Source: Firmicutes bacterium HGW-Firmicutes-11 (GTDB lineage Bacteria; Bacillota; Clostridia; Peptostreptococcales; Anaerovoracaceae). From it: 64,000 nucleotides of DNA. The DNA lies in the NCBI GenBank assembly GCA_002840285.1, contig PHAE01000009.1, forward strand, positions 1 to 64,000. The letters run 5' to 3'. Below are positions 16,321-26,700 of the stretch, piece by piece. The position numbers and the translations under genes were made by a program. The notes beneath the pieces are model-generated. The model worked only from the letters and a program-made list of their open reading frames with translations, did no database searches and was not told where the DNA came from. How positions within the stretch are numbered: the stretch's first letter is position 1; every line of letters starts with the position of its first letter.

Positions 16321-16355
16321 AAAACTGTCGCCCTCTCTGACTGAGGGCGACAGTT
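16321..16355. terminator. Terminator between convergent genes
   Basis: A 13-base perfect stem (16323-16335 with 16343-16355) with a 7-base loop separates the secreted-protein gene and the methyltransferase gene. The T-run follows on the minus strand, so it mainly ends the methyltransferase gene, whose stop codon begins in the stem. Confidence 0.8.
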
Positions 16356-17119
16356 CAATACTTTTCTGCAACAACAAGCATTTCGTAATCTGTCGTTGCA
16401 AGTTTATCCTCTCTTGAATACGCACCGATTTTCGCACCGAAAATCTCAATCTTTTTATAACCCAAGGATGTAAGCAGCCATGTGATTTCGCTTGGTAAAT
16501 AGTACCGTTCATTACACTCAAGCTTATGCTCATTACCGTCATCATCCGTAAAAGCGGTGTTATTATGATCTCTCATGGTCATCAAATCAAAACCGTCGCT
16601 TTTATAGTGCGCGCCTACTTCATTCGCGCCCGCTTCATGAAAATCATCAATGGAATGAAATAGGGGAAACAAACCATTAAGCGTCGTAAAAATGAACTTG
16701 GCGGAACTCTTTAAAGATTTGGTTACGTTTTTCAAGATCTCAAAGTTCATTTCGTCCGTTTCCATCAATGGAAACCCACCTTCACAAAGCATAATGGCTA
16801 CATCAAACTGGTTTTCAAAAGGTAGATTTCTGGCATCATGCATTAAAAACTCGATCTCCAGGCTTTCTGTCTCAGCCTTTGTTTTCGCTTTTTTTAACTG
16901 TGATTCGGATAAATCAATTCCCGTAACGACGTAACCTCTTTTTGTAAGCTCAATGGAATGTCTACCGGTTCCACAGCCAACATCAATTATTTTTAATGAC
17001 TTATCGCCATTAAGCTCTTTCTCTATAAAATCACATTCACCTATCGTTCCTTGTGTGAAAGACTCTTTATCATACATCTCCCCATAATTCTCAAATAATA
17101 CTTCATACCATTGTTTCAT
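16355..17119 (-). CDS. Class I SAM-dependent methyltransferase
   Basis: The 254-residue protein carries the SAM-binding motifs of class I methyltransferases: IIDVGCGTGRHSIELTKRG (motif I, about 38-57), the acidic end of strand 2 in VTGIDLSESQL, then LMHDARNLPFENQFDVAIML. The acceptor substrate is not predictable; the family includes small-molecule methyltransferases. A GGAGG site precedes the ATG. Upstream on the same strand lie gene remnants, so it probably has its own promoter or read-through from them. Confidence 0.8.
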   Translation of the reverse strand: MKQWYEVLFENYGEMYDKESFTQGTIGECDFIEKELNGDKSLKIIDVGCGTGRHSIELTKRGYVVTGIDLSESQLKKAKTKAETESLEIEFLMHDARNLPFENQFDVAIMLCEGGFPLMETDEMNFEILKNVTKSLKSSAKFIFTTLNGLFPLFHSIDDFHEAGANEVGAHYKSDGFDLMTMRDHNNTAFTDDDGNEHKLECNERYYLPSEITWLLTSLGYKKIEIFGAKIGAYSREDKLATTDYEMLVVAEKY

Positions 17120-17695: not shown

Positions 17696-18121
17696 TCAGT
17701 GGTTGATCGCCTCGATGCCAAGCCTCTTATGCTCCCTAAGGTATTCCCGCATTTTTTCTAATTCCTCTGGAGAGTGTCTCTGCCATTCCAAAACTTCGTC
17801 CAAAACTCGCAGAGGCGACTTTGTCCGATAAGACCTTGTCGGATTCCCCGGGAATTTCTTGTCAGTCAGATTAGGATCATTCTCGAAGGCGCCTGTAGGT
17901 TCCACACGATAGATCCGGCCGGGCTTGTCGCCAATCGCAAGCTCTGCTCCCCATATTGCGGCATCCATAGTTGCTGTCATATAGACGAAGTTCGCTTTCT
18001 TTTTTTCTCCATAATTTGAACTTAAGCCAGGCTCAAGCAAATCCCCTGGCTTTAAGTCGGCTTTTGTGCCGTGGAAGAATGGCCCGACGTCTTTCGGTCC
18101 ATTGCCATGCATCGTAGTCAA
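17696..18121 (-). CDS. arr: Rifampin ADP-ribosyltransferase (Arr family)
   Basis: The 141-residue protein matches Arr, which transfers ADP-ribose from NAD+ to the C23 hydroxyl of rifamycins and so inactivates them. Visible features are FFHGTKADLKPGDLLEPG near the start, with the His and neighbouring residues of the NAD site, followed by VYMTATMDAAIWGAELA, GRIYRVEPTGAFENDPN and FPGNPTRSYRTKSPLRV. The length is as expected. A TTG at 18121 has GAGG 9 bases upstream, whereas the ATG three codons later would be 18 bases away, so the TTG start is preferred. It stands alone in the accessory region; whether it confers resistance here is not known. Confidence 0.85.
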   Translation of the reverse strand: MTTMHGNGPKDVGPFFHGTKADLKPGDLLEPGLSSNYGEKKKANFVYMTATMDAAIWGAELAIGDKPGRIYRVEPTGAFENDPNLTDKKFPGNPTRSYRTKSPLRVLDEVLEWQRHSPEELEKMREYLREHKRLGIEAINH

Positions 18122-18167: not shown

Positions 18168-18938
18168 CTATTCGATGTCGACATCCGGCTGAAACTCCTC
18201 AAACAGGTTGGGAAAGACCTCTCTCATAGGGGTTATGGAACTGTAGTCTGTAATAGGATTGTTGGCGATCGAAAATTCTTTCAATTGTTTCACATTGGCA
18301 AGCGGACTGATATCTGTGATGAGATTGTCCGATATAAATACGCTCCAAAGCTTAGGCAATTCGCCTAGAACTGTTATGTCTTTGATTCCTGCACCCCGTA
18401 CCTCAAGCACCTCAAGCTGTTTCATGTCACTGATAAAATCCAGGTTTTCATAGCCGTTATGCCCCTGATCAGGTGCATAGCTCCAGTCAAATATTAGTGT
18501 CACCATATTGGAAAGGCCCTTCAATGGGGACAAATCGGTTACTCTAACACCGTTAAAAGTCAACGTTGTGAGCTTTGTCATTGATGCCAGCGGTGAGAAA
18601 TTTTGAATATCGTTGAAGTCCAAATGCAATTCCGTTACATTCGTAAAGTAAATAAGATCACTGATGTCTTTGATCCCACCATTTTCTGCATTCATTGCAT
18701 CCCAATCCTGATTGCTTAAATCAAGCGCAGTGACTGCCTCGGCATCGCTGATCGTGATGTCACCAGTGGGCATTTTCATCGCAGCACGGATACCCTCTTC
18801 AAGATATGGATCAGAAAAATCAATAATTACGGGATCGTTTACTTGAGGCTGCTCTGCTTCTTGTGGCGAAGCTTCTGAGCAGGCAGAAAGTGACGCTAAA
18901 AGAGCAACGACCAGCAAAATGATGGCAGCTTTTTTCAT
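18168..18938 (-). CDS. Leucine-rich-repeat lipoprotein
   Basis: The 256-residue protein starts with a lipoprotein signal peptide (lipobox LSAC, Cys near residue 20) and a low-complexity linker. Leucine-rich repeats of about 22 residues of the internalin type follow (units such as LTTLTFNGVRVTDLSPLKGL and LWSVFISDNLITDISPLANV), running from about 70 to 240. It should be attached to the outer face of the membrane and bind another protein or polymer. It is 12 bases downstream of rlmD, but nothing ties its role to rRNA methylation. GAAAGG precedes the ATG. Confidence 0.85.
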   Translation of the reverse strand: MKKAAIILLVVALLASLSACSEASPQEAEQPQVNDPVIIDFSDPYLEEGIRAAMKMPTGDITISDAEAVTALDLSNQDWDAMNAENGGIKDISDLIYFTNVTELHLDFNDIQNFSPLASMTKLTTLTFNGVRVTDLSPLKGLSNMVTLIFDWSYAPDQGHNGYENLDFISDMKQLEVLEVRGAGIKDITVLGELPKLWSVFISDNLITDISPLANVKQLKEFSIANNPITDYSSITPMREVFPNLFEEFQPDVDIE

Positions 18939-18950
18939 AGTGTTTTCCTT

Positions 18951-20348
18951 TCAGTCGCTTTGCGACTTCGTAAGCAGGGCTACGACTTCTATGTTCCCGG
19001 CATGGGGGAAGAGGTCGACTGGTTGGGCCTCGACCATCTCATAACCGTGGGCTGCGAGGTACTTCAGGTCCCGGGCCAGGGTGGCCGGGTCGCAGGAGAC
19101 GTAGATGATTTTCGGCGGGCCGGCCTCGGCCACGGCGGCGAGCAGAGCAAGGTCGCAGCCGGAGCGTGGCGGATCCAGGACGATCAGGTCGGGCTGGATC
19201 CCCTGGCCGGTCAGTTTGGGAAGCTCTTCTTCCGCTTTTCCGTGTATGAACTCCGCATTGACACAGCCGTTGAGGACTGCATTGCGATTGGCGTCCATCA
19301 CTGCTTTCTTTTGGGATTCGATGCCGATGACGCGCTTTGCTTTGTCTGCCAAAAAAAGTCCAATGGTGCCAACGCCGCAGTAGAGGTCAAGGACGGTTTC
19401 CGTACCTTTCAGTTCGGCGTACTCGATCACCTTTTGATAGAGTTTTTCTGTCTGGGTCGGATTCACCTGGTAGAAGGACAGAGCAGATATCTCAAACTGC
19501 TTTCCCATCATCTCGTCGATGATCGTCGGATTGCCTCCCAGGGTAATGCATTCGGTGCCCATGATTTCTCCGCGCTTTGTTCGGTTTACATTGAGGATCA
19601 TGCTCTCGAAGCTGTATCCTTCCATATCCTCCAGCGCTTCGCTGATTTTAGCAGCCAACCATTCTGCTCCCGGGATCCTGCGTGCGGTGGCGACAAAGAT
19701 CACCATGACGTCGCCGGTTCCATATGCGGTTTTGACGATCAGGTGACGCAGCAGTCCGGTCCCTGTCTTGGAATCGTATACCGGCACTTTGAACTCTTTG
19801 ACGTAATTTCTGACCACTTCTGCAATACGGTTCGCGGCTTCCGTTTGGATCGGACAGTGGTCGATGTCGATCGCTTCGTGGGTCCTCGCCCGGTGGAATC
19901 CCACCGTACACGCCCGGAGCTTTTTTTCTTCTCCTGTCACACGCGCAACTACGTATTGGGCCTTATTGCGATATATGACTGGATCTTCCATAGGTATCAC
20001 ATCATGCACAACGGGGTTTTCTATTCCACCGATTCGAGAGAGGCGATCCTTGACCCATTTTTTCTTGATGATCAACTGCCCGTCGTAACGGATCGACTGT
20101 AGTCCGCAGCCACCGCAGTTCCCCTCGTATTTGCAGAACGGTTTGATGCGATAAGGGGACGGTGTAATGATTTCTTCTACGATCCCTCTTGCAATGCTCT
20201 TCTTGTGCTCTGCGATACGCACTTTGACGGTTTCCCCGGGAATGGCCCCGGGAACGAAGATCGCCAGTCCTTCAACTTTGCCGATTCCTTCTCCATGCGT
20301 GCTAAGATCTACGATCTCCATTTCATATCGTTCATCGGTATTAAACAT
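18951..20348 (-). CDS. rlmD: 23S rRNA (uracil-C5)-methyltransferase, RlmD/RlmCD type
   Basis: The 465-residue enzyme uses SAM to methylate C5 of a uridine in 23S rRNA (U1939 and/or U747 type). A TRAM domain occupies about residues 1-60. Cysteines C72, C78 and C81 (CKYEGNCGGC) plus one near 169 ligate an Fe-S cluster. The catalytic part has YQVNPTQTEKLY, motif I DLYCGVGTIGLFLA, DPPRSGC, and the nucleophilic Cys in YVSCDPATLARDL. Gram-positive homologues can modify both positions, so the exact target is open. It is 45 bases downstream of the methyltransferase of the AmmeMemoRadiSam group and has a clear AAAGGAG site. Confidence 0.92.
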   Translation of the reverse strand: MFNTDERYEMEIVDLSTHGEGIGKVEGLAIFVPGAIPGETVKVRIAEHKKSIARGIVEEIITPSPYRIKPFCKYEGNCGGCGLQSIRYDGQLIIKKKWVKDRLSRIGGIENPVVHDVIPMEDPVIYRNKAQYVVARVTGEEKKLRACTVGFHRARTHEAIDIDHCPIQTEAANRIAEVVRNYVKEFKVPVYDSKTGTGLLRHLIVKTAYGTGDVMVIFVATARRIPGAEWLAAKISEALEDMEGYSFESMILNVNRTKRGEIMGTECITLGGNPTIIDEMMGKQFEISALSFYQVNPTQTEKLYQKVIEYAELKGTETVLDLYCGVGTIGLFLADKAKRVIGIESQKKAVMDANRNAVLNGCVNAEFIHGKAEEELPKLTGQGIQPDLIVLDPPRSGCDLALLAAVAEAGPPKIIYVSCDPATLARDLKYLAAHGYEMVEAQPVDLFPHAGNIEVVALLTKSQSD

Positions 20349-20393: not shown

Positions 20394-20972
20394 TTACAGC
20401 CGGCAGATGTACCAAGCTGATCGAGGGCCTACGTCTTCCATCTGCAGGTTATGAAAGTAGTCATTGAGCTCAGAATCAACATTTTTTATGAATCCGGGAT
20501 AGTCGCCGCCTTCCATTCGTTCAACGATGTCGGTCAACAACGATCGGTTTTGGTTGTAATCGTGAAGGATGACCAGACTCTTTGAAACTCTGGACATTTC
20601 ACCATAGAGGCGAGTGCGCTGCTCTGGCTGCATGCCATGGGCAACGAAAGCGGAAATGGCGATATCAAAACTCTTGTCCGGAAATGGAAGGCCGTCTATA
20701 GCATCCGCCAGTACGAATCTGATGGTCTTGTTCTCTTCCTTGTTTCTGCCCACTGCCATCATTCGTTCGATACGCTCTGTGCAAGTCACGGCAAAACCGG
20801 CTTCGTTGAACACAGAGCAGAGAGCTCCGGTACCGCCTCCCACATCGATCATCGTTTCAAAGGAATGCAGATCAAGGATCTTTGACATCTTACCAACGAC
20901 GCGGCGATATTCTCGCTTTTGTCGTTGGTAAAACAAGCTGTAGATCGGCGCGATCCGATGGAATTTATCCAT
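20394..20972 (-). CDS. Class I SAM-dependent methyltransferase coupled to AmmeMemoRadiSam genes
   Basis: The 192-residue protein has motif I METMIDVGGGTGALC-like sequence (here FETMIDVGGGTGALC), an acidic strand-2 end (CTERIERM), DAIDGLPFPDKSFDIAISAF and a later HDYNQN. It resembles the UbiE/COQ5-like methyltransferase-11 group; the substrate is unknown. Its ATG overlaps the stop of the radical SAM gene by one base (TGATG), so translation is coupled. This makes it a candidate fourth component of the AmmeMemoRadiSam group, an inference from position only. Confidence 0.8.
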   Translation of the reverse strand: MDKFHRIAPIYSLFYQRQKREYRRVVGKMSKILDLHSFETMIDVGGGTGALCSVFNEAGFAVTCTERIERMMAVGRNKEENKTIRFVLADAIDGLPFPDKSFDIAISAFVAHGMQPEQRTRLYGEMSRVSKSLVILHDYNQNRSLLTDIVERMEGGDYPGFIKNVDSELNDYFHNLQMEDVGPRSAWYICRL

Positions 20973-21790
20973 CACAGGTTGCCCTCATATACATATTGCA
21001 AAGATTCCCGGGCGATTTCGGCTAGCCGGAGTATCCGGTCAACCGGGGTTGCCGGGCGGTCCTTCATATTGAAGTTTGGGAAAAAACGGGACACATGGAG
21101 CGGAATGCCCGGATCCACTGATGCCAGCCATTTGGTCAACTGCCGCATCTCCTCGTCGCTATCGTTTTCCCCCGGGATCACAAGGGTCGTGACCTCCACA
21201 TGTGAAACTGTTGCAGCCAGTGTTATCGTCTGCTTGACGGTTTTCACATCTCCGCCGATCCTTCGATAAAAATCATCGGAAAAGCTCTTCAGATCTATGT
21301 TCCAAGCATCGATCAACGGCAGTAGTTCAGACAGTGGCTCCTGATTGATGTAGCCATTGGTCACCACAACATTTTTCATGCCCTGTTCGGCAATAATAAT
21401 AGCACAATCCCGGACGAACTCATATGCGATCAATGGCTCGTTGTAGGTGTAGGCCAAACCAATGTTCCCGTTCTTCTTGAACTCTGCTGCTTTCTCTGAT
21501 AATTCTATTGGAGAAAGTTTGACATATTGCTCCGGTTTTCTGACCATCGAGATATGATGATTCTGGCAGAAGGAGCACCTCAGGTTACAGCCGTAGCTAC
21601 CGGCGGAAAGTATGTTGCTCCCGGGGAAAAATCGGCGCAGCGGTTTCTTTTCAATGGGATCCAGAGACAGTGCCGTTACGATTCCGTAGCTGTCACATCG
21701 GATCTCGCCGTCAAGATTGATCCTCGCTCCGCAGACGCCATACTGTCCCGGCTTGATCTCGCAGTGTCTGGGACAAACCTCGCACTTCAT
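20972..21790 (-). CDS. amrS: AmmeMemoRadiSam system radical SAM enzyme
   Basis: The 272-residue radical SAM protein has Cys C68, C72 and C75 (CNLRCSFC) for the [4Fe-4S] cluster that cleaves SAM. An N-terminal Cys group (CEVCPRHC and GVCG) is characteristic of the AmmeMemoRadiSam branch near pyruvate-formate-lyase activases. Conserved context such as YTYNEPLIAYEF, VTNGYINQEPL and DLKSFSDDFYRRIGG agrees. The reaction is unknown; these proteins always occur with Memo-like and AMMECR1-like partners. The start overlaps the stop of the fused partner gene (ATGA). The gene symbol follows usage for this family and is not certain. Confidence 0.88.
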   Translation of the reverse strand: MKCEVCPRHCEIKPGQYGVCGARINLDGEIRCDSYGIVTALSLDPIEKKPLRRFFPGSNILSAGSYGCNLRCSFCQNHHISMVRKPEQYVKLSPIELSEKAAEFKKNGNIGLAYTYNEPLIAYEFVRDCAIIIAEQGMKNVVVTNGYINQEPLSELLPLIDAWNIDLKSFSDDFYRRIGGDVKTVKQTITLAATVSHVEVTTLVIPGENDSDEEMRQLTKWLASVDPGIPLHVSRFFPNFNMKDRPATPVDRILRLAEIARESLQYVYEGNL

Positions 21791-23172
21791 TTGTGACGCA
21801 CCACCTCAAAACGTTCCATCCGAAAGTCGTCTTTGGGATCGATACCAGCCTTTTGCAAAGCGATCTCAACCTGTTGCTGCGGTGTCCGGACTCCTTCAAG
21901 GTTCGGCAGCAACAGTCCCCGTTTTCTTCCCTTGCTAACGATAACACCGTAGCGGATCACGTCCAACTGGGACAGATCTTCGATCGGCTCCGCTTTGCCC
22001 AGCACATCGACACTGTAGACCAGCTCCGGCAATTCTTTTTTGGTCACGGGATCAAACCTTGGATCTCCCACACCGGCGCTAATTGCATTGCGAATGATCT
22101 CGTCTGCGATACAAGCTTCCACTGGCTCGATGGTGCCGATGCAGCCACGAAGCTGGCCGTCTTTTTTCAAAGAAACAAATACACCTGCCTTCTCCTCTGT
22201 CAATGGCACAGAGAGGTCGGTCGGCCGTTCGATGGTCTTTCGGCTCGTGACGTAAGTCTCCAGCGCTCGTCTTGCGAGTCGTACATACTCGCTCTCCTCT
22301 GACTTGAGTTTAGCGAGTTCCTGTGTAAGACTTGATTCTTTTTGAAGATCAAAGCATCTTTCCCGGGAAACACCGGTGACAAGAAAGGATGCAACCGCAT
22401 ACCCGACACCAAAAGTACCTTCATAGGAAAGTAGTCGCGGCTCAACCGTGTGACCGTCCAAAGCGCCGGCCATGATTTGAATTGATCGGAGTCCGCATTC
22501 GCCAGCGGCTTCGCAGAATTCCTCCGGGAAACTTAAGAATTTCAAAAAATCGCCGCTTTCCATAGCCGCGGTCACTTCCTGGTCAAACACCGGACCTTCT
22601 TCGGAAAAGTCATACGGCCCCTGATCCGAAAGCCGGTGAGACAGATCACCGCTAGCCACTACAACGACCCGACGATCCAGATCTGCAGCCACTTCTGCGA
22701 TGCATTTTCCGAAGCGGTAATGATCCAGCGCCGAAAGACCGGAGATCGAAGTACGAACCCATTGGACGTCTTTCAGCTCTTGCTGTAAAAACCATAGAGG
22801 TACGAGGATTCCATGATCCAGGTTTTTATCTTTTTCTCCCAACGATCCTGCAGGTATACCGTTTCTGGCGGCGCAAATGCCGAGTTCGTTTACCAGCTCC
22901 TGGTCATAAGAGATACGAAGTTCGGTTTTTGTGTCGCCGAACCGCTTAAGATCTCCCCTGGCTGATGCCCCGGGAGAAACGTGGATATAGTCCCGGTACA
23001 TGATGCTGTGTGGTGTTGCCACCACAATGGTGTCTGGTGCAAGGTCCCGGATCTCTGCAGCAATTGTTTGATAGGCATCGATCGTCTTTTGTATCTTATG
23101 TTCCTGCCCGCCGCCGACATCGGGCACGATCAGTGGCGGATGAGGAACGATATAACCGGCCAGCACTGACAT
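21787..23172 (-). CDS. Fused Memo-like / AMMECR1 protein of the AmmeMemoRadiSam system
   Basis: The 461-residue protein joins two conserved domains. Residues 1 to about 270 resemble the class III extradiol dioxygenase-like Memo domain, with metal-binding His candidates in YIVPHPPLIVP, ATPHSIMYRDY and LDHGILVPLWFL, and VVVASGDLSHRLS. Residues about 285-461 are an AMMECR1 domain with the signature LRGCIGTIEP and GDPRFDPVTKKELPEL. Elsewhere the two domains are often separate genes. The start at 23172 has AGGAGGGG 6 bases before it. The whiA stop lies just upstream, so the genes are tightly linked. The joint biochemical role with the radical SAM enzyme is unknown. Confidence 0.88.
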   Translation of the reverse strand: MSVLAGYIVPHPPLIVPDVGGGQEHKIQKTIDAYQTIAAEIRDLAPDTIVVATPHSIMYRDYIHVSPGASARGDLKRFGDTKTELRISYDQELVNELGICAARNGIPAGSLGEKDKNLDHGILVPLWFLQQELKDVQWVRTSISGLSALDHYRFGKCIAEVAADLDRRVVVVASGDLSHRLSDQGPYDFSEEGPVFDQEVTAAMESGDFLKFLSFPEEFCEAAGECGLRSIQIMAGALDGHTVEPRLLSYEGTFGVGYAVASFLVTGVSRERCFDLQKESSLTQELAKLKSEESEYVRLARRALETYVTSRKTIERPTDLSVPLTEEKAGVFVSLKKDGQLRGCIGTIEPVEACIADEIIRNAISAGVGDPRFDPVTKKELPELVYSVDVLGKAEPIEDLSQLDVIRYGVIVSKGRKRGLLLPNLEGVRTPQQQVEIALQKAGIDPKDDFRMERFEVVRHK

Positions 23173-23174
23173 GA

Positions 23175-24137
23175 TCACCCCTCCTTTGGAACGGAAGACC
23201 GCAGTTGATCTGCGATTTCTCCTATTTTTCTAAATCTGTGATTGATTCCCGATTTCTTCAAGGGCGGCTCCGTCAGCTCTCCCAGTTCCATCAAGCTCGC
23301 TTCCGGGTGAGCCAGACGTAGCCGGGCAACCACCGCCAATTTGTCCGGCAATGTTGCCAAACCCCGTCGCTTCTCGATCAATCGGATGTCGTCGATCTGC
23401 CTTGCCGCACTGTTGATGGTCTTGTCCATATTTGCATTTTCGCAGTTTACGATACGATTGGTTTTGTTTCGCAATTCCTTTATTATGCGCACATTTTCAA
23501 AGGCCAGCAAATGAGTGTGGGCTCCGAGGATGGCGAGAAGGTCGCTGATCTGCTCTCCCTCCTTTAGATAAACGATATAGTTTTGCTTTCTGGCGACCAC
23601 TTTTGCTTTCAGACCAAATCCGTTGATCAACCGCTTCAGATCCTGCGCGAGAGTCTCGCTGTTTGCCACGATCTCCAGATGGTATCCCTTTTCCGGATCG
23701 CTGATCGTTCCTGCACCTATGAATGCTCCTCTGAGAAAAGCTTTTCTGCAACATTTGGTCTTTATGATGTCGGAAGAGATCTCGTCGGGAAAGTAATTGC
23801 ACCCTTCCTTCACCTTGAGTATACCGGTTTCTCTGAGGATCTGCTCTGACTTGTCTTCCGTGCCGATGGTAAGCTCGTAGACGTGTCCCTTCTTGGACAA
23901 TGCGCTCTGCCCGATGGCAAGGTCGGCGCCAACGCCGAAATACACTTTGATCCTCTTCAGAAAAAGGCGTGCAATGGCAGGGTTCTCTGTTGAGATTTTA
24001 AGGTCGACCCGGCCTCCGCCGGACAACTTCACCGTTCCGCACATTCTTACAAATCCTGCGATCTCAGCCAGCATGCAGCACTTTTTTTCAGTTTCGATCC
24101 TAGCCAGTTCTTGTTTGATATCGGAAGAAAAGGACAT
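23175..24137 (-). CDS. whiA: DNA-binding regulator WhiA
   Basis: The 320-residue protein is WhiA, a bacterial regulator with a degenerate LAGLIDADG homing-endonuclease-like N-terminal domain (about 1-210) and a C-terminal helix-turn-helix. Recognisable parts are SFSSDIKQELARIE, CCRKAFLRGAFIGAGTISDPEKGYHLE, NCENANMDKTINSAARQIDDI and the HTH region LRLAHPEASLMELGELTEPPLKKSGINHR. It affects cell division or chromosome-related processes in Gram-positive bacteria. The usual yvcK gene between rapZ and whiA is missing here; only 32 bases separate the two. Confidence 0.95.
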   Translation of the reverse strand: MSFSSDIKQELARIETEKKCCMLAEIAGFVRMCGTVKLSGGGRVDLKISTENPAIARLFLKRIKVYFGVGADLAIGQSALSKKGHVYELTIGTEDKSEQILRETGILKVKEGCNYFPDEISSDIIKTKCCRKAFLRGAFIGAGTISDPEKGYHLEIVANSETLAQDLKRLINGFGLKAKVVARKQNYIVYLKEGEQISDLLAILGAHTHLLAFENVRIIKELRNKTNRIVNCENANMDKTINSAARQIDDIRLIEKRRGLATLPDKLAVVARLRLAHPEASLMELGELTEPPLKKSGINHRFRKIGEIADQLRSSVPKEG

Positions 24138-24169
24138 AGCGCCTCCTGAACATGCTTATTTGTAAACTC

Positions 24170-25015
24170 TTACAGATCCCGATGGATCGGGATCACGCGC
24201 CACCCGTCGGCGCGAAACAGCTCGGTAAAAACGTTTGCCAGCGCCACGGATCGATGTTGACCGCCGGTACAACCAAGAGCCAGTACCAGTTGGGGCTTTC
24301 CCTCTCGTATGTAGGACGGTATCAGGTCGTTGATCAAACGGTGGACCTGATCGATGAATGGCTGGGTCTCCGGCTGTCGCAGCACGTAGTCTTTCACTTT
24401 TTTACTGTTGCCGGTCAGATGTTTCAAGCTTGCGAGGTAAAACGGATTTGGTATGAATCGCAGGTCGAATACCATATCAGCATCCAAAGGGATCCCCTTC
24501 TTGTAGCCGAAAGATAGTATGGTCAGTGTGAAGCGGGACGCATCGGGACTTGCCATCAGGTTTCGGATCTCTTCCGAAAGCTGCGCAGATTTCATGTTGG
24601 AGGTGTCCAATATATAGTCCGCTTCCCTGCGGATCGCTGCGAGTCGCTCTTTCTCTGCTGCGATGCCTTCCTGGATGGACCCGTTGACCGACATCGGGTG
24701 GACGCGTCTCGTTTCCTTATACCGTCGAAGAAGGACCTCGTCGGAGGCTTCCAGAAACAGGATCTTGTAGGAAACGCCCACTCGTTTCAGATCATCCAAC
24801 CCTTTGAGCAAATCGTCGAAAAACTCTCCCCCCCGAATGTCGATCACAAAAGCGACCTTGCGGATCCCTGTTCTCTCCTTCACAGACAAGTCGATGAAGT
24901 TTCGGATCAATGCGGGCGGCATGTTGTCGATACAGTAGTACCCCAGATCTTCCAGGCAGTGCATCGCCTGGCTTTTCCCCGCTCCGGAAAACCCGGTCAC
25001 GATGATGAGTTCCAT
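24170..25015 (-). CDS. rapZ: RapZ/YvcJ nucleotide-binding protein
   Basis: The 281-residue protein binds GTP or ATP through the Walker A motif GFSGAGKS (residues 8-15). It has the conserved YKETRRVHPM segment and the C-terminal block LVLALGCTGGQHRSVALAN. In Escherichia coli RapZ directs RNase E to the GlmZ small RNA and binds glucosamine-6-phosphate. In Bacillota the homologue YvcJ has a less defined role in competence and nucleotide signalling. Its ATG follows the upstream stop directly (TGAATG), with GGAGGAATG overlapping that stop. Confidence 0.95.
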   Translation of the reverse strand: MELIIVTGFSGAGKSQAMHCLEDLGYYCIDNMPPALIRNFIDLSVKERTGIRKVAFVIDIRGGEFFDDLLKGLDDLKRVGVSYKILFLEASDEVLLRRYKETRRVHPMSVNGSIQEGIAAEKERLAAIRREADYILDTSNMKSAQLSEEIRNLMASPDASRFTLTILSFGYKKGIPLDADMVFDLRFIPNPFYLASLKHLTGNSKKVKDYVLRQPETQPFIDQVHRLINDLIPSYIREGKPQLVLALGCTGGQHRSVALANVFTELFRADGWRVIPIHRDL

Positions 25016-25783
25016 TCAGCATTCCTCCAAATTCACGATCCTTGCCGGATCGATTCCGGCTGCGAGGGCGCGTTCCAGTCCCGGTAGAAATGTCCCGACT
25101 CGGTCCGGGCTGTGGGCATCGCTGCTTATGATAAAGGATACCTGCTCCTTTGCCAGATGCTTCAATTCGTCGTTCATCGGCGCTTCGTGCCAGGTGCTGA
25201 TCTCCATCAAGGTTCCGGTCTCGACGCAGGCTCTGGCAATGGGAAGCAGGTCGAACCGTCCCTTGTCGCCAGGATGTGTCAGCGCCTTGATCTTGTTCTC
25301 GTGAAGCGCTTTGATCACAAGTTCCGTGTTGATCTTTCGCTGTCCTTTGTCACCGGTAGCCGGTGAACCCCACTCGGTTCTTCTGCCCTTGATGTAGTTG
25401 GCGACCAGGTTGACCGCGTGAGTTTTAAATGCTCTGACCGGTGCTTCACCGAAGATGCCATAGTGATATCCAGCAAGCACATAGTCGAAATAAGACAATT
25501 CCTCTGTCCAGATGTCAAGTGTTCCGGAGGGGTTGATGATGTTGGCCTCCACTCCCAGTGTGATTCGAATTTCTGGATACATAGGCTGTAAACGATCGAT
25601 CTCTTTACGCATCACCGGGAAATTTTTGTGCTTGACTCCATAGGTCAAGTGACCGGGACCGTGGTCTGCGATGCCGATCTCTTTCAGCCCTTTGGCGATC
25701 GCTGCCTTGACGTTGTCTTCGATGGACCCGGTGCCATGGGAAAATGTGGTATGTGTATGGATATCATAGATCATTCGCATCAT
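25016..25783 (-). CDS. PHP-domain phosphatase (YcdX-like)
   Basis: The 255-residue protein is a PHP-domain metallohydrolase. The N-terminal YDIHTHTTFSHGTGSIEDNV gives the first metal-binding His pair, IGIADHGPGHL and GVEANIINPSG further ligands, and LTHPGDKGRF and IISSDAHSPDRVG the last His/Asp residues. Family members hydrolyse phosphate esters such as histidinol phosphate or nucleotide phosphates; the substrate here is unknown. It overlaps murB by four bases (ATGA). The murB-PHP-rapZ-whiA order is typical for Clostridia, apart from the absent yvcK. Confidence 0.85.
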   Translation of the reverse strand: MMRMIYDIHTHTTFSHGTGSIEDNVKAAIAKGLKEIGIADHGPGHLTYGVKHKNFPVMRKEIDRLQPMYPEIRITLGVEANIINPSGTLDIWTEELSYFDYVLAGYHYGIFGEAPVRAFKTHAVNLVANYIKGRRTEWGSPATGDKGQRKINTELVIKALHENKIKALTHPGDKGRFDLLPIARACVETGTLMEISTWHEAPMNDELKHLAKEQVSFIISSDAHSPDRVGTFLPGLERALAAGIDPARIVNLEEC

Positions 25784-26700
25784 GATTCTTCACCGATGAT
25801 CCGGATCTCCGGCTCCAGATGCACACCTGAGTTTAGAAAGACTTGTTCCTGGACGAACCGCATCAATCCTATGATATCTTTCGCAGTCGCGTTGTTTTCA
25901 TTGACTAAAAACCCGGCGTGCTTGGTCGAGATCGCCGCACCGCCTATCGACGCGCCCTTAAGCCCGGCATCTTCAATCAGTTTTCCTGCATAGTTTCCCG
26001 GAGGACGTTTGAAAAAGCTGCCTGCGCTGGGCATATCCAATGGTTGTTTTTCCCGGCGCTTTGCGGACAACTCTTCCATCCGGCTTCGGATCGCTTCCCT
26101 ATCTTTTGTGACAAGCGAAAATGCTGCGGAAACTACGATTCCTCCGTTTCCCATCAAAGCACTTTTTCGGTAGCCGTAATCCATGTCGGTGTTGCTCATC
26201 TCGGTGATCCGTTCTCCGTCACTTGACATGACCTGGACAAATCCAACGATTCCCTTCATTTCTCCATCATATGCTCCAGCATTCATAAAAACCGCTCCGC
26301 CGACGCTGCCGGGTATCCCGGAGGCGAATTCAAAGCCGCCAAGTCCGCGGGAGAGTGCTTCCGCTGCTGCATCTTTCAGCAGTGCTCCGGCGCCGGCAAC
26401 CAGTATATTCTCTTTTGTTTCAAAGTGTCCCAAGTCCCTGCCGATCTTTACGATCGCACCTCGGTATCCGCCATCCAAAATCAAGAGGTTGGTACCGTTT
26501 CCCATGATCAGAGTGTCCACATCATGAAAGGCAAGTATTTTTAAAGTCGAAGACAGTTCCTCCACTGAGCCGGGAATGATGAGCAGATCGGCTCTTCCTC
26601 CTGCCTGAAATGAGGTGTGCTCTCTCATCGACGCGTTTCTTAAAATTCTGCTCGGAGTGAATCGCTTCGAAAACTCCTGGTATGCACCTTCCTGTGACAA
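25780..26700 (-). CDS. murB: UDP-N-acetylenolpyruvoylglucosamine reductase MurB
   Basis: The 306-residue flavoprotein reduces UDP-GlcNAc-enolpyruvate to UDP-MurNAc with NADPH, the second committed step of peptidoglycan synthesis. FAD-binding elements are MGNGTNLLILDGG and GIPGSVGGAVFMNAGAYDGEM. The catalytic Ser lies in MPSAGSFFKRPPG and the Glu in LEPEIRIIGE. The layout is type II (no extra Tyr loop). The first codon is TTG with GGAGG 7 bases upstream. It heads a long minus-strand operon and is divergent from argG. A possible TATAAT lies at 26743-26738 with a poor -35 box. Confidence 0.95.
   Translation of the reverse strand: MSQEGAYQEFSKRFTPSRILRNASMREHTSFQAGGRADLLIIPGSVEELSSTLKILAFHDVDTLIMGNGTNLLILDGGYRGAIVKIGRDLGHFETKENILVAGAGALLKDAAAEALSRGLGGFEFASGIPGSVGGAVFMNAGAYDGEMKGIVGFVQVMSSDGERITEMSNTDMDYGYRKSALMGNGGIVVSAAFSLVTKDREAIRSRMEELSAKRREKQPLDMPSAGSFFKRPPGNYAGKLIEDAGLKGASIGGAAISTKHAGFLVNENNATAKDIIGLMRFVQEQVFLNSGVHLEPEIRIIGEES

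Follow-up and report, generated by a model that had tools for sequence, protein, structure and literature searches.

Does a methyltransferase gene that overlaps the radical SAM gene of an AmmeMemoRadiSam locus reveal what this system acts on? Conservation of the AMMECR1 and Memo proteins extends from archaea to humans, and human MEMO1 has been linked to iron handling. We know of no reaction for AMMECR1 or Memo proteins, and to our knowledge both the substrate and the reaction of the AmmeMemoRadiSam system are unsolved. The system is named in few open papers, as our literature search revealed, and genomic evidence that points reliably to the substrate of AMMECR1/Memo would be valuable. Here, we analyzed a stretch of 64,000 nucleotides of DNA from Firmicutes bacterium HGW-Firmicutes-11 (contig PHAE01000009.1; "the window" in the following). 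A preliminary description of the locus, made from the sequence alone, had taken the coupling of a class I methyltransferase gene (MT) to the amr genes as a hint that MT may act on the same substrate.

The gene string and its AmmeMemoRadiSam core

The locus forms a string of genes that is confined to the minus strand throughout. It starts with murB (25780-26700, NF010480), followed by genes for a PHP-domain protein (25016-25783, NF006702) and RapZ (24170-25015, NF003828), by whiA (23175-24137, TIGR00647), and by the gene for a fused LigB/Memo-like and AMMECR1 protein (AmrB-AmrA fusion, 21787-23172). Downstream are amrS, which encodes the AmmeMemoRadiSam radical SAM enzyme (20972-21790), the gene for the SAM-dependent MT (20394-20975, PF08241, 55 bits) and, 45 bp 3' of it, rlmD for the 23S rRNA uracil-5 methyltransferase (18951-20348, TIGR00479, 420 bits). 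The same-strand continuation on both sides, from whiA up to murB and down to rlmD, was absent from the preliminary description. WhiA is encoded directly 5' of the fusion gene, as it also is in the relatives G031 and G007. The gap between rapZ and whiA measures just 32 bp in the window (24138-24169), and the locus L197 of a relative carries an unidentified gene for 273 amino acids at this position. Further minus-strand genes of the window encode a rifampin ADP-ribosyltransferase (Arr, PF12120, 164.5 bits; 17696-18121, TTG start) and a leucine-rich-repeat protein with a lipoprotein-like N-terminus (18168-18938).

The fusion protein comprises 461 amino acids from an ATG that is preceded, 7 nt 5', by a GGAGG Shine-Dalgarno motif; the reading frame is open from GTG 23178. 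Its 3' end overlaps amrS by four bases (ATGA), just as the preliminary description had stated. The one-base overlap that it gave for amrS and MT applies only with the start it had chosen, ATG 20972 (192 amino acids). With GTG 20975 (193 amino acids), whose ribosome site, a GAGG motif 7 nt 5', is the better spaced one, the overlap is four bases. A chance reading frame or an assembly chimera as simple explanations of the locus are excluded by the overlapping starts and the conserved domains.

Profile searches confirmed that a single protein unites a LigB/Memo-type N-terminal domain with a C-terminal AMMECR1 domain. Pfam places LigB (PF02900, 146 bits) at residues 9-262 and AMMECR1 (PF01871, 157 bits) at residues 299-460, and it ranks LigB over Memo for the N-terminal domain, the Memo family (PF01875) scoring only 21 bits, below its cut-off. 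The AMMECR1-type protein A passes its NCBIfam model clearly (TIGR04335, 132.1 bits vs. a cut-off of 99), and the Memo-type protein B marginally (TIGR04336, 30.4 bits vs. 26). In an alignment of 99 fusions, His13 was conserved in 98, and both His57 and Cys228 in all 99. LigB-type extradiol dioxygenases use two His and one Glu as ligands; the fusion retains the two His, but Glu227, the neighbor of Cys228, is Glu in only 88 of the 99 proteins and Gln in the remaining 11. The iron ligands of MEMO1 are H49, H81, and C244 (PMC11081632), and an hhalign profile comparison matched Cys228 to the Cys in stand-alone Memo proteins. Judged from this alignment, the metal site is most likely of the Memo type with the ligands His13, His57, and Cys228, because Cys228 is invariant while Glu227 varies, both His residues are conserved, and Cys228 pairs with the Memo Cys (C244 in MEMO1). 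Cys228 is likewise the likelier metal ligand when compared with Glu227. In the AMMECR1 domain, the RGCxG motif is invariant.

AmrS is a short form of 272 amino acids. It scores 274.9 bits against TIGR04337 (cut-off 220), carries the CX3CX2C motif as C68/C72/C75, and covers positions 12-285 of the 349 model positions, so that the C-terminal part of the model is missing. Such short versions are frequent; of 108 recognised AmrS frames, 64 comprised 260-299 amino acids. AmrS was present in 36 of 60 relatives, nearly always adjacent to the fusion, and open frames of fusion length (454-494 amino acids) recurred in the class-wide sample. Among 120 amr loci (80 class-wide and 40 from the window's order), we found a recognised AmrS in 109, a fusion of more than 420 amino acids in 98, and both side by side in 97. 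A fusion next to AmrS is thus the standard clostridial layout, and the core of the locus is ordinary. A rare separation was seen in the relative G014, whose fusion (C1:172578-174026) and AmrS (378183-378998) are encoded approximately 200 kb apart.

Position and family of the methyltransferase

MT belongs to a coherent family, with orthologues scoring above 140 bits, mostly at 41-53% identity, and paralogues below 40 bits. None of the curated NCBIfam equivalog cut-offs was reached. The AlphaFold model, built on an alignment of 55 sequences, has a mean pLDDT of 93.1; as modelled, MT has a minimal class I fold that is nearest to small-molecule methyltransferases. The best structural match is PH0226 (1ve3, Z 20.9), and the solved structures indicate a general small-molecule class I fold without pointing to any particular substrate. 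We found members in 22 of the 297 order-level genomes and in 10 of the 343 from the class. Roughly 60 loci from named genomes of Bacillota, Mycoplasmatota, Spirochaetota, and a few other groups also carry the family. The tree groups the window's sequence with Gudongella, but on a long branch and with weak support, so that no clear donor can be named. The GC content of the MT gene (0.49) is inconspicuous. Another class I methyltransferase, which is UbiG-like and scores below every curated cut-off, is encoded 3 kb 3' of MT (16355-17119, minus strand); it shares just 35% identity with MT over 73 residues.

We surveyed the adjacency of MT and amr genes in the 60 relatives, the 297 order-level genomes, and the approximately 60 loci of other genomes. 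Flanks of 1.5 to 8 kb, as far as the contigs extended, were searched at 85 MT loci outside the window, a few of which represent genomes sampled twice; neither AmrS nor the fusion was encoded beside MT at any of them. Conversely, MT did not occur within two genes of amr at any of the 120 amr loci. Within the order sample, the window's genome is the only one in which a contig carries both MT and AmrS. In G031, the nearest relative, the gene order is whiA, fusion, amrS, tlp, two further genes, and rlmD, which lies 3' of amrS here as well (locus L194); three other genes thus take the place of MT, and the MT gene of G031 is on a different contig from the amr block. Methyltransferases in general are not common amr neighbors: the 25 most frequent Pfam families among 142 flanking genes include none, and none was common among 23 genes downstream of amr in relatives.

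We therefore reject a conserved physical linkage of MT and amr, the adjacency being found in the window's genome only. It is best regarded as a local event, because amr lies beside MT at none of the other surveyed loci and because the block of G031 lacks MT. The preliminary description had proposed precisely such a neighborhood survey, and the gene coupling did not hold up as a functional clue. Since MT never stands beside amr at the surveyed loci outside the window, both findings named there as speaking against the idea, a neighbor confined to this genome and one that is otherwise found away from the system, were obtained for the physical linkage. We consider it likely that the locus represents a typical clostridial AmmeMemoRadiSam core, that a free-standing MT gene ended up between amrS and rlmD, and that little can be concluded on its function from this position. 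The overlapping start of MT runs against this interpretation in that it could reflect selection for co-expression.

Co-occurrence of MT and AmrS across genomes

A second observation against MT as a mere passenger is that AmrS is enriched in MT carriers, which is unexpected unless lineage and ecology explain it. In the order, 18 of 21 MT carriers possess AmrS, compared to 96 of 275 other genomes (Fisher, 5.8e-6; window's genome left out), and the corresponding numbers are 16/18 vs. 45/116 for genera (6.9e-5) and 8/9 vs. 109/333 for the class (0.001; window's genome left out). In a broad set of 50 MT carriers, AmrS exceeded the cut-off in 44 and was present as fragments in 3 more; the order, class, and broad samples overlap in part. 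Both genes also occur in the cultured Thermoanaerobacter wiegelii (MT at locus L163, AmrS in G366). As an ecological control, nifH carriers contained AmrS in 20 of 36 cases, which is below the rate of the MT carriers.

These numbers would fit an MT that is a genuine, though mostly unlinked, accessory of AmmeMemoRadiSam, methylating the product or a substrate of the AmrS-fusion pair and standing in one operon with them here by chance. Stratifying the 60 relatives by family left an excess of MT with AmrS at a one-sided p of 0.044. Yet the missing linkage at the 85 MT and 120 amr loci stands against this explanation, as do six sampled MT carriers without AmrS (three order-level, three from the broad set); one of the six, G037, consists of a single contig and lacks the fusion as well. 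Moreover, MT is missing from 96 of the 114 AmrS genomes of the order, and the AmrS baseline in the class Spirochaetia is already 45/69. AMMECR1 is in any case a strong marker of anaerobes, occurring in 50.66% of anaerobes and 3.38% of aerobes (PMC13386939). The excess is at least partly lineage-driven; its support is weak after family stratification, and we treat it as a lead only. We regard the accessory explanation as rather unlikely. The proposal of the preliminary description that MT acts on the amr substrate thus lost its argument from conserved gene coupling, whereas a shared substrate is still conceivable, because MT genomes carry AmrS elsewhere far above background. That the MT family is a conserved, genetically unlinked partner of AmmeMemoRadiSam appears unlikely to us. 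If true, the operon would be one of the rare instances in which a methylation step of an unsolved and very widespread pathway of anaerobes becomes visible.

Alternatively, MT might belong to a different process, for instance iron-sulfur or metal handling, with amr only as a second Fe-S-rich correlate. NapH-like 4Fe-4S proteins, CDGSH iron-sulfur proteins, and SO_0444/SaoE-like permease pieces indeed occur among the neighbors at 84 MT loci, but each in at most 6 of the 84, and no context dominates. We consider this connection quite improbable. One MT locus (L034:7567-10902) resembles a metal-resistance cluster, with a second methyltransferase, SO_0444/SaoE-efflux-like permease pieces, and a NapH-like ferredoxin.

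Recurrent neighbors, proposed working, and comparison with known systems

Other genes accompany the amr core repeatedly. The genes for the diadenylate cyclase CdaA and for CdaR follow amrS at 18 of 80 class loci in 10 of 34 families, 16 times directly, and cwlD precedes the fusion gene at 11 of 80 class loci in 4 families, both counts being uncorrected for shared ancestry of gene order. The 18 cdaA-cdaR loci (L266-L269, L271, L272, L275, L278, L280, L285, L289-L291, L294, L301, L307, L310, and L312) include three in which glmM is the third gene after amrS. In Clostridia, cdaA-cdaR is a stronger amr neighbor than MT. A search of the accessible literature revealed no paper linking AMMECR1 to diadenylate cyclase. 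Together with murB and rapZ at the present locus, cdaA-cdaR, glmM, and cwlD suggest a substrate or role of the amr proteins in cell-envelope or amino-sugar metabolism. In the window's own order, CdaA was not encoded after amrS at any of 40 loci, which weighs against our favored interpretation of the locus as a whole.

According to that interpretation, AmrS would generate a 5'-deoxyadenosyl radical at the cluster bound by its CX3CX2C motif, as expected from motif and family, and AmrS would act on a substrate bound by the fusion. The latter would contribute the Memo-type His-His-Cys metal site and the RGCxG motif of AMMECR1, both of which are conserved. The MT gene would have ended up between amrS and rlmD in this genome and would be translationally coupled there; MT has a minimal fold, and its substrate is probably a small molecule, modified in a step that is separate or optional. 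MT at this locus thus offers no clean clue to the substrate, and the survey leaves two testable leads, namely the cdaA-cdaR neighborhood in Clostridia and the AmrS excess in carriers of the MT family.

Compared with known systems, MT shares its fold and SAM motif with UbiE/UbiG-like and other small-molecule class I methyltransferases, but is only ~8-20% identical to its structural matches. The fusion belongs to the same superfamily as MEMO1 and the Memo proteins (hhalign probability 97.7%) and has the equivalent His, His, and Cys; it differs from them in being merely 12% identical over the aligned columns and in the Glu that mostly precedes the Cys. This dioxygenase/Memo superfamily is reportedly the subject of Burroughs et al. 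2019 (JBC), as cited in PMC7159879. With respect to the AmmeMemoRadiSam model itself, all three families (TIGR04335 for A, TIGR04336 for B, and TIGR04337 for rS) are present in adjoining and overlapping genes, with A and rS well over their cut-offs. The locus departs from the model in that B is fused to A and matches LigB better than Memo, and in that AmrS is C-terminally shortened; the B-A fusion, the LigB-like B, and the short AmrS are all common in Clostridia.
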